Origin: an uncultured Elusimicrobia bacterium
GTDB lineage: Bacteria; Elusimicrobiota; Elusimicrobia; Elusimicrobiales; UBA9959
Direction of reading: 5' to 3'
Length of the DNA stretch: 40,113 nucleotides
Assembly (NCBI GenBank): GCA_937898825.1
Contig: CALEIX010000049.1
Span: 1-40,113, forward strand
The number at the start of each line of letters is the position of its first letter. Positions within the stretch are counted from its first letter, which is position 1. Positions 19,321 through 29,761 of the stretch are shown piece after piece. The position numbers and the translations under genes were made by a program. The notes under the pieces were generated by a model. It had not been told where the DNA came from, did no database searches, and saw nothing but the letters and a program-made list of their open reading frames with translations.

Positions 19321-19459
19321 AACGCTATAAACTCAATAAACGCTTAACGCTATAAACTCAATGAACGCTCAACGCTATAAACTCAATGAATGCTCAACGC
19401 TATAAACTCAATGAACGCTCAACGCTATAAACTCAATGAACGCTCAACGCTATAAACTC
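19321..19459. repeat. 25-bp tandem repeat, 5.6 copies
   Basis: Five full units plus a 14-base partial unit (from 19446) follow each other without spacers. The unit begins AACGCTATAAACTCAATGAA and ends CGCTC. Unit 1 differs at two positions and unit 3 at one (GAATGCTC). A related phrase without tandem copies is seen near 10925. Lack of unique spacers rules out a CRISPR array. Confidence 0.9.
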
Positions 19460-19515: not shown

Positions 19516-19902
19516 TGTTTGCCTTTGCGACGGATAGTACCCCGGATTCTGTTTTATGGAATCATTTATCTGTCGCGGCCCACTTCGCGCCTTCGCTCAA
19601 AGCGAAAGGAAGGCACCTTTGACGCGCATTTGGCCTTGCTCCGGGCGGGGTTTGCCATGCCTTAAAAGATTACTCTTTTAAGCGGTGCGCTCTTACCGCA
19701 CCTTTTCACCCTTATCCGCCTGAGGCGGACGGTATATTTTCTGTTGCACTTTCCGTCTAAGCGGATATTGCCGCTTATCCCGGACTTATGCCCTTTCGCA
19801 AAAGCTCAAGGGTTTAATCCGGCGCCCTTGCCTTTGGAGTCCGGAAGTTCCTCCCCTGCCGAAAGGCGGAGGCGATTCCTCATCCGACGCAAAAAACAAA
19901 CA
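19516..19902 (-). ncRNA. rnpB: RNase P RNA (bacterial type A)
   Basis: About 387 nt on the minus strand. Universal elements appear in the right order. The 5' conserved region GAGGAACTTCCGGACTCC lies at 19853-19836, and AAAGTGCAACAGAAA with the GGGTGAAAAGGTGCGGTAAG stretch follows. The stem GGTGCG/CGCACC spans 19702-19684, CCGGAGCAAGGCCAAAT is near 19645-19629, and the 3' region ACAGAATCCGG is at 19552-19542. The ends pair as P1 (TTTGCG-CGGAT with ATCCG-CGCAAA). The RNA is the ribozyme that matures tRNA 5' ends. Predicted reading frames across it on both strands are spurious. Its promoter appears to include the end of the adjacent mobile element. Ends are estimates from P1. Confidence 0.93.
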
Positions 19903-19908
19903 GCATTC

Positions 19909-19937
19909 ATTAAAAGCGGGATTAGATGCTCTGTCCA
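19909..19937 (-). promoter_or_regulatory. Probable rnpB promoter, -35 supplied by the MITE end
   Basis: On the minus strand TGGACA (19937 to 19932) is a five-of-six match to the -35 consensus, followed by exactly 17 bases and TTTAAT (19914 to 19909), five of six for -10. The predicted start at 19901-19903 coincides with the 5' end of rnpB inferred from helix P1. The -35 lies inside the terminal inverted repeat; the -10 lies outside it in flanking DNA. Confidence 0.55.
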
Positions 19938-20194
19938 ATAAATAGTTAATGGTTTGGAAAGCCAGATTTGAGGCAAGTTCAAGGCTCGGGCGCGCGCATA
20001 CCTGAAGGGGGCTGCATGCAAGGAGCAACGAAGAAATTGACCAAATATGGCTTTCCCTATAAGGGCAGGTTACTTTTGGGCTGCAACTTCGTCATTCATC
20101 GCTCACATACCACAACAGGTATGCTTACTCTTCATTCCTTGTTTCGCTCCAAAATTAACTCTGCCAAACTATCAAATATCTATTGGACAGAGCA
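19927..20194. mobile_element. MITE-like element, 268 bp, full copy
   Basis: The ends are 31-bp terminal inverted repeats (19927-19957 and 20164-20194) that match at 27 of 31 positions and begin TGCTCTGTCCAATA. The element is flanked by direct repeats TTAGA (19922-19926 and 20195-20199), a target-site duplication of five bases, or TTAG if the outer A belongs to the element. The 206-bp interior has no transposase frame. It contains a nested inverted repeat (GGAAAGCCA-K-ATTTG, about 19955 and 20045) and GCAAC-GAAG phrases. A non-autonomous element moved by a transposase elsewhere is the natural reading. The YTAR-like duplication is reminiscent of IS5-group insertion, but the family is not established. 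Confidence 0.8.
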
Positions 20195-20674
20195 TTAGAA
20201 CAAATCGGGTTGGTGAAACTTCTTTTCGTTTTCTTTTTGTATGCTTTTGCCCAGGCGTTTATTAATCTTTATTTTGTTGAGAATCTGATTTACAAGTTTG
20301 TCGGCGACCTTGTTTTTGGCGCGGGGAATATAAGAAAGAGTTACTTTGTATTTTGCAGCTTCCCTCATTATCTCTGCCATAAGATTAAACAGCACCGTGT
20401 TCTTTATCTTATATTCTCCGCTGAACTGTCGCACCAAAAGATCGGAATCGGAAAATATTTCAAGATGCGTGGCTTTTAGATATTTTGCCGCTGACAATGC
20501 CTGCATAAGAGCGTTATATTCCGCGAAATTGTTGGTGCATATACCCAAATATTTCGCCTCTTCATGAACAAGTTTTTCGTTCTGGTCGAAAATAACCACA
20601 GAGCACGCTCCGTGACCTGGATTTCCTCTCGAACCTCCGTCTATGTATATCTTAAACTTTTTGGTTTTAGTCAT
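20195..20674 (-). CDS. rnhA: Ribonuclease HI family protein
   Basis: 159 residues. The four catalytic acids of RNase H are seen: D12 in YIDGGSRGNPG, E52 in NNFAEYNAL, D76 in FSDSDLLVRQ and D125 in NKVADKLVN. The compact form without the basic protrusion resembles the archaeal/double-hybrid type of bacterial RNase HI. It degrades RNA in RNA-DNA hybrids. A 30-residue lysine-rich tail follows the fold. The stop codon TAA lies inside the right target-site duplication of the MITE, so the element inserted immediately behind the gene without changing the protein. Before insertion, only about 20 bp separated this gene from rnpB. Confidence 0.9.
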   Translation of the reverse strand: MTKTKKFKIYIDGGSRGNPGHGACSVVIFDQNEKLVHEEAKYLGICTNNFAEYNALMQALSAAKYLKATHLEIFSDSDLLVRQFSGEYKIKNTVLFNLMAEIMREAAKYKVTLSYIPRAKNKVADKLVNQILNKIKINKRLGKSIQKENEKKFHQPDLF

Positions 20675-20711: not shown

Positions 20712-21470
20712 TTATTTTTCGTTCTCCTCTTTGAAAGAGCCCGGCGCGACCTTCAAACAAAGCATTCTCTGGCAATTGTCACAGATAGCTATGACGTTGG
20801 GTTTGCGCAGTTCACCGCTTTTCTTTGAGGTTAAAGCCATATTGCAGCCGCTGCAGAAATACTTACCGTCCCTTTCCTCAGCCTCAACCAGAGCCTCTCC
20901 CTTTTTGGAGCGAAGATACTCATATTTTTCAAGCAATTGTGCGCTTATTTTTAGAGCCATCTCCCGCCTTGACTCCATTTCTCCTTTCAGCACATTTTCT
21001 ATTTCACAAGAACGTTTTCTCAAAGCGTCTATCTCCTGCCTTTTGCCTTTTTCCATTTCCATAAATTCGCCTTTGCGTTTCCTTTCCGCTTTCTGCGCCT
21101 CTTCCAGTTCATCCAGCAAAGATATCTCATCATTTTCAAGGCTGTCTATTCCATTCTTAATCCTTTCTATTTCCGTCAGAATCGCTTTATACGCTTCGTT
21201 ATTCTTAACAGCGTTTAACTCCTTCTGATGCTTCAAGACATTTTCTTCCTTTTCTTTTATCAAAAGTTCCATCTCTCTGCTTTTCACCTGCAAATTTAAC
21301 ACTCTTTTCCTGGCTTCTTCAAGAAGATCCTTCTTCGCTTCCATATCCTTCTCGATTTCAGCAATTTTTAAAGGAATCAAATCCATTTCCTCGCGCATGG
21401 AATTAATTCGCCTGTCCTTTTTCTGAAGAGCCATCAATTTATCTAATTCCTGCGTATATATAATGTCCAT
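20712..21470 (-). CDS. Coiled-coil protein with C4 zinc ribbon (zf-RING_7 type)
   Basis: 252 residues. A long, highly charged coiled coil (about 5-200, Glu/Lys/Leu heptads) is followed by a C4 zinc ribbon: C-SG-C in KYFCSGCNMAL and C-DN-C in AICDNCQRMLC. This is the architecture of the widespread bacterial zinc-ribbon/coiled-coil family often found near rnpB or Nif3-like genes. Its molecular role is not well defined and nucleic-acid binding is only a suggestion. It precedes the RNase H gene by 37 bases on the same strand, giving a small group with rnpB. A TATAAT box ends eight bases before the ATG, leaving no clear ribosome binding site. Confidence 0.85.
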   Translation of the reverse strand: MDIIYTQELDKLMALQKKDRRINSMREEMDLIPLKIAEIEKDMEAKKDLLEEARKRVLNLQVKSREMELLIKEKEENVLKHQKELNAVKNNEAYKAILTEIERIKNGIDSLENDEISLLDELEEAQKAERKRKGEFMEMEKGKRQEIDALRKRSCEIENVLKGEMESRREMALKISAQLLEKYEYLRSKKGEALVEAEERDGKYFCSGCNMALTSKKSGELRKPNVIAICDNCQRMLCLKVAPGSFKEENEK

Positions 21471-21546
21471 CGCTAATTATTATACAAAACCTTTTCACCA
21501 GGAGGAAAAATTCCGAATGTCATAACGTTACGGAGTTAAGAAACGT

Positions 21547-29299: not shown

Positions 29300-29322
29300 A
29301 AACCACTCCTCCAACAATCTAA

Positions 29323-29356
29323 TGCTCTGTCCAATAACTATTTATTTGACAGAGCA
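29323..29356. mobile_element. 34-bp miniature copy of the MITE between EIIA and EIIB
   Basis: TGCTCTGTC and GACAGAGCA form perfect 9-bp inverted ends around 16 bases. The left 15 bases match the left end of the full element at 19927; the right end matches its right end with one change (TATT-T-GACAGAGCA). It is flanked by direct repeats CTAA (29319-29322 and 29357-29360). The right duplication contains the EIIA stop codon. It looks like an internal-deletion derivative, and as RNA it would fold into a small hairpin between the two cistrons. Confidence 0.7.
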
Positions 29357-29761
29357 CTAATCTTCCAGAAGACTTTTTACTTCGCATATTGCCTTTTTCC
29401 CGTCGCTAATTACTTTTTCAATCAAATCTTCAAATCCATATTTTGAACGATTGAAAAAGGCTGAAATAACCATATTCAGGTTTACTCCGCAGACAGCCGC
29501 AGTCTTATCCAGATTCTGAAGTATGGGAACGGCTACGTTCATTGGCGTTCCTCCGGGCATATCAATAAAACATATGAGCCCTTCAGGACCGCGCATTTCC
29601 TCCACCGCTTCCTGCACTTTTTCATGAATCATTGGCAGGGACATACGGGGGGACACCGAAACACTTTTTATCCCCTCCTTTTGCTCTCCCACTATATTCT
29701 CTGCCGCCTCAATTAAATAGGCACCGAATTCCCCGTGAGTAATCACAATGATATTAATCAT
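29357..29761 (-). CDS. PTS mannose-family EIIA component
   Basis: 134 residues from the ATG at 29761. AGAGGAG lies about eight bases upstream, and the conserved N-terminus MINIIVITHGEFGAYL starts there; the longer frame from 29827 is read-through of rapZ sequence. H9 is the phosphorylation site, and FIDMPGGTPMNVA is the signature loop of the mannose-family EIIA (a D-x-x-G-G-T-P-x-N motif). It takes phosphate from HPr and passes it to EIIB. It lies 22 bases after rapZ. Its TAG stop lies in the target duplication of the 34-bp element. Confidence 0.95.
   Translation of the reverse strand: MINIIVITHGEFGAYLIEAAENIVGEQKEGIKSVSVSPRMSLPMIHEKVQEAVEEMRGPEGLICFIDMPGGTPMNVAVPILQNLDKTAAVCGVNLNMVISAFFNRSKYGFEDLIEKVISDGKKAICEVKSLLED

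Follow-up and report, generated by a model that had tools for sequence, protein, structure and literature searches.

Introduction

The formation of hybrid promoters at transposon ends is known in general, as an earlier note on the DNA analysed here had pointed out, and is exemplified by the Correia repeat enclosed elements (CREE) of Neisseria with their "Black promoter", for which promoters have been shown upstream of uvrB and others (PMC2649163). Promoters are formed by Correia ends with the -10 element completed by the flank (PMC2649163, PMC10969869), and RNase III cleaves mRNA-borne Correia elements, as described for mtrCDE (PMC2649163, PMC10969869). Given these Correia promoters and this RNase III cutting, both routes considered below, hybrid promoter formation and processing, belong to already known kinds. 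Sigma70-like promoters have also been reported for the prokaryotic MITEs MITEAba12, BrickBuilt, QMITE1 and SonMITE_1 (PMC10969869). In the literature searched we found no MITE of the promoter-bearing kind linked to rnpB, and titles and abstracts held nothing relevant on rnhA-rnpB adjacency or on insertion-altered rnpB promoters.

Here, we address the junction between rnhA and rnpB in a stretch of 40,113 nt (hereafter the window) from an uncultured Elusimicrobia bacterium, for which it had been proposed that the end of a mobile element supplies the promoter of rnpB. Read along the minus strand, the locus comprises metF (22417-21566), followed by a zinc-ribbon/coiled-coil gene (21470-20712), then rnhA (20674-20195), a 270-bp repeat (20195-19926) and finally rnpB (19891-19522). 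The features relevant to the analysis are as follows.

19522-19891, minus strand: rnpB, RNase P RNA, bacterial class A (Rfam RF00010, 216 bits, E 6.7e-69, full-length model match)
19909-19914, minus strand: -10-like hexamer TTTAAT, outside the MITE, 5/6, mismatch at -11 A (from sequence)
19931-19915, minus strand: spacer between the hexamers, 17 bp (from sequence)
19923-19925, no strand: target duplication TAG, rnpB side (from sequence; TA flanks in other copies)
19926-20195, no strand: MITE, 270 bp, inverted ends, without transposase, multicopy (copies in the genome; hairpin fold)
19926-19957, no strand: terminal inverted repeat toward rnpB, the R end (pairs with 20164-20195, 88% over 32 bp)
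19932-19937, minus strand: -35-like hexamer TGGACA within the R end, 5/6 (from sequence; TTGACA in all other R ends)
20164-20195, no strand: terminal inverted repeat toward rnhA, the L end (pairs with the R end)
20196-20198, no strand: target duplication TAG, rnhA side; together with the first base of the MITE it gives the rnhA stop TAA (from sequence)
20195-20674, minus strand: rnhA-like gene, RNase H fold, C-terminus QPDLF (Pfam RVT_3 and RNase_H)
20712-21470, minus strand: zinc-ribbon/coiled-coil gene, upstream member of the presumed operon (Pfam Zn_ribbon_9 above cut-off, CT398_CC just below cut-off)
21479-21484, minus strand: TATAAT, candidate -10 of the presumed operon promoter, without a good -35 (from sequence; absent from the consensus-scan list)

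Like the CREE with its Black promoter, the repeat at this junction is a short multicopy inverted-repeat element, the end of which carries a -35-like hexamer while the flank supplies a -10-like one. Unlike CREE, the MITE has an unrelated sequence and its target is an RNA gene, and its promoter is a putative one; besides, part of the -10 of the Black promoter lies inside CREE, whereas at rnpB the whole -10 lies outside the MITE and lacks the -11 A. The resemblance to the RNase III-cut Correia elements consists in the position in a leader or junction and in the long RNA hairpin that the MITE would form, but the downstream product in our case is a structured RNA, and transcription of the MITE and its cutting are predicted only. 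With MITEAba12, BrickBuilt, QMITE1 and SonMITE_1 it shares the non-autonomous, multicopy character and a promoter-like sequence in or near the end, these four being set beside it by description, not by sequence. Should the MITE end be what drives rnpB, the cell would have come to depend on a selfish repeat at an RNA gene that ranks among the most conserved. If it does not, which is the outcome we favour, the locus would show a conserved rnhA-rnpB transcription unit tolerating repeated insertions and would point to a gene pair for RNase HI and RNase P RNA kept across many phyla. With a probability of about 0.55 we suggest that the MITE sits in a conserved rnhA-rnpB operon and that rnpB is expressed mainly by read-through and processing, the hybrid motif being weak or incidental.

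The inserted element and its target

The repeat had been taken for a mobile element, and so it proved: it is a MITE by its anatomy, that is, by inverted ends, dispersed copies and target-site duplication. Five full or nearly full copies and many partial ones, with 27 distinct ends in total, occur in the 2.27-Mb draft genome; the TAG duplication flanks the rnpB-side copy on both edges, and TA flanks are seen at most other copies. A DDE_3 (PF13358) transposase, the only transposase family searched for, was not found in the draft genome. The element can be described as a non-autonomous transposon relic with a TA-containing target duplication, inserted at the stop codon of rnhA, which stays intact because the duplicated TA is followed by A as the first base of the MITE. 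As RNA, the MITE is predicted to fold over its length of about 270 nt into a single hairpin (-108.5 kcal/mol, z -8.7). Repeats in 10 of the family's genera covered by the search share the core of the MITE but have other ends (L014, L016, L085-L093), as if different ends might carry one core.

A false join of two contigs by the repeat appears conceivable for a draft genome of 368 contigs in which several MITE copies lie at contig ends. We consider this highly improbable, since conserved synteny predicts these genes on either side, the target duplication is the same at both edges, and the rnpB-side copy is unlike all others, with at most 94% identity to any of them.

Two further observations concern the flanking genes. 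Just 3' of rnpB, at positions 19321-19459, a 25-bp unit is repeated in tandem 5.6 times. The C-terminus QPDLF of RNase H (20195-20212, minus strand) and the QxxLF or QLELF-like C-termini of relatives resemble a sliding-clamp-binding motif.

The rnhA-rnpB junction in relatives

Of the 37 rnpB loci examined at the level of the order (own locus included), 27 are preceded by rnhA in the same orientation. In the window's family the distance from the rnhA stop to the RNase P RNA is often 0-40 nt, and in several genomes (L136, L140, L027, L051 and L056) the stop overlaps or touches helix P1. Within the 30 nt that precede rnpB, a -10 box containing the -11 A is present in 4 of 30 cases in the window's family versus 14 of 16 in the sister family, where it often reads TGnTACAAT, absence of the box in the window's family being judged, like its presence, by an E. 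coli-type consensus. It is likely, to the extent that gene order and promoter motifs reveal it, that ancestrally rnpB of the window's family was transcribed at the end of the rnhA operon. Such a state agrees with the earlier proposal that before the insertion rnpB relied on read-through or an rnhA-internal promoter, given that in relatives rnhA stands directly before rnpB, often without an intervening -10. The distance of about 20 bp, which had been given for the rnhA stop and rnpB after removal of the MITE, holds if counted to the proposed transcription start; counted to the Rfam 5' end it is about 33 nt.

The same gap has received other insertions. Dispersed repeats unrelated to the MITE lie between rnhA and rnpB in G004, G010 and G013 (13, 48 and 13 genome matches, respectively), and by the E. 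coli-type consensus none of the three has a recognisable -10 beside rnpB; were a new promoter needed after each insertion, one would be expected more often. In CSMAG_1877, the closest named relative (L124; 63% RNase H identity), a 415-aa gene is located between rnhA and rnpB, and TAGAAT precedes rnpB; because of this gene, the junction shows neither the empty site nor the MITE insertion.

Promoter-like motif at the MITE end

The coordinates of the motif on which the promoter proposal was built are correct: on the minus strand TGGACA (19937-19932, 5/6, in the terminal inverted repeat) is separated by 17 bp from TTTAAT (19914-19909, 5/6, outside it). The reading in which this hybrid of MITE end (-35) and flank (-10) produces most rnpB RNA from about 19901/19902, in the manner of Correia elements, for which the principle is established (PMC2649163), at the gene of an essential ribozyme, is a tentative one and in our opinion rather doubtful. 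With a sigma70-type matrix, the frequencies of which are those generally known for E. coli promoters, the junction with the MITE scores 10.3, a value reached by 2% of shuffles, and falls to 4.4, i.e., to the chance level, when the MITE is removed; by the same E. coli-type matrix the family-consensus end TTGACA, possibly present at the time of insertion, would have raised the score to 13.8. With the MITE end held fixed, the flank yields a -10 of at least 5/6 at 16-18 bp in 3.8% of shuffles, so that such a box arises by chance in roughly one case of 25. Among the family's ends, 3 of 27 have a -10 of this quality at this spacing, 1.25 being expected, and the whole window contains, on both strands, 15 double sites of at least 5/6 with 16-18 bp spacing compared with 11.2 +/- 3.6 in shuffles. 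Thus the motif beats chance at the rnpB junction, not strongly, and the coincidence is a mild one.

The single mismatch of TTTAAT falls on position 2, the -11 A, which is the most important and near-invariant position of the -10 element; owing to it, the site is absent from the standard promoter-scan list. Usage of -10 boxes in the host genome was assessed by hexamer counts in 26 tRNA leaders; a -10 motif learned by EM from the same leaders was overfitted and was dropped in favour of these simple counts. Exact TATAAT occurs in 4 of the 26 leaders (0.84 expected), boxes mismatched at position 4 or at position 5 in 5 leaders each (about 1.4 expected), and boxes mismatched at position 2 in none (2.1 expected). 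Judging by these counts, the -10 boxes of the host seem to be of the ordinary sigma70 type, with a preference for the -11 A, which speaks against the hybrid motif as the main promoter. Its tRNA promoters also show a -35 signal, with a mean of 3.5 matches against 2.5 expected.

The -35 hexamer is likewise inferior to that of its siblings: it reads TGGACA at rnpB and TTGACA in every other R end of the genome. The change weakens the -35 of the rnpB-facing end; it restores pairing with the L end, and the outer hairpin stem is perfect in the rnpB-side copy. Neither the decay of the -35 nor the restored pairing points to selection on promoter function. The implied start, which had been equated with the 5' end of RNase P RNA, coincides with it only approximately: 19902/19901 compares with 19891 for the Rfam 5' end and with about 19895 for helix P1 when extended by eye, which leaves some 6-11 extra nucleotides on the 5' side. 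In most sister-family genomes, by comparison, the distance from the beginning of the -10 to the Rfam 5' end is 9-13 nt, a spacing at which the RNA would start at or beside P1.

Taken together, what stood of the claim that the MITE supplies the rnpB promoter is the mobile element itself, the -35-like hexamer in its end and the -10-like hexamer outside it; the absent -11 A, a -35 worse than in sibling copies, the behaviour of other repeats at the same junction and the probable read-through of other MITE copies weigh against the rest. A stricter version, according to which the insertion severed rnpB from the ancestral operon, made the MITE end the -35 of its sole promoter and left the element no longer losable, seems to us unlikely.

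Other copies of the MITE

Four other full copies lie between co-directional genes, as does a 36-bp mini-copy (29322-29357) consisting of both ends and a 6-bp middle. At nine MITE ends the next start codon is 5-41 bp away, mostly less than 25 bp, which in most cases is too close for a promoter built from the MITE end, and the genes beside these ends are probably read through or transcribed from inside the MITE. Other copies thus lie within apparent operons, where read-through of the element is probably common. The best point in support of the hybrid promoter comes from orientation: R ends elsewhere mostly face gene 3' ends, and rnpB is the only nearby gene start clearly faced by one. A better hybrid motif, TTGACA-17-TACAAT, is found at the R end of L013 (G000:C37), aimed into the 3' end of a gene.

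Probable read-through of the junction

The MITE has been inserted at the rnhA stop codon, inside the conserved rnhA-rnpB pair, and within the favoured reading rnpB would still be produced mainly by read-through of the zinc-ribbon/rnhA transcript. In this RNA the MITE portion is predicted to fold into one long hairpin; its cleavage by an RNase III-like enzyme could assist the release of RNase P RNA. The motif TGGACA-17-TTTAAT would then act as an auxiliary promoter at most, and may be incidental; such weakness in vivo, like read-through and processing, is what we infer from the observed anatomy, insertion, synteny, copy number and motif scores. On the minus strand between rnhA and rnpB no terminator-like site was found. 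The exact TATAAT at 21484-21479, just upstream of the zinc-ribbon gene and after a terminator-like hairpin, lacks a good -35 and is for this reason taken as a candidate operon promoter, a circumstance that counts against read-through. The same is true of the above-chance score of the filled junction under the E. coli-type matrix and of rnpB being the only gene start faced by an R end, which selection could explain.

Alternatively, rnpB might be served by a promoter situated inside the MITE, rnhA or the zinc-ribbon gene and unrelated to the hexamer of the terminal repeat. Inside the zinc-ribbon gene the minus strand has weak promoter-like sites (21148-21119 and 21023-20994), and promoters may exist inside rnhA in some relatives; nevertheless, this appears distinctly improbable, as the consensus scan gave no minus-strand site from 20674 to rnpB and the number of sites in the region equals the shuffled expectation.

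The gene pair beyond the order

In a survey of 80 RNase HI-like loci drawn from L124-L203, 49 have a class A RNase P RNA motif no more than 700 nt, usually less than 150 nt, from the rnhA stop (examples are L148, L154, L159, L167, L173, L184, L192 and L198), and Rfam confirmed the RNase P RNA in 18 of the 20 rnhA-rnpB loci tested. The records concerned are titled Elusimicrobia, Omnitrophota, Deltaproteobacteria, Nitrospirae, Nitrospinota, Spirochaetes, Ignavibacteria, Planctomycetota and Thermosediminibacteraceae, so the adjacency of rnhA and rnpB is widespread over many phyla. The RNase P RNA of L150 (Omnitrophica), which has no Rfam match at cut-off, seems to be enlarged in its 5' part by an A+T-rich stretch of inverted-repeat sequence, about 100 nt long, that directly follows the rnhA stop. 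In L153, L154, L156, L171, L173, L178, L179, L180, L184, L192 and L195 the pair is preceded on the same strand, at a distance of about 1 to 2 kb, by at least one tRNA gene, an arrangement that suggests a longer conserved cluster around rnhA-rnpB.
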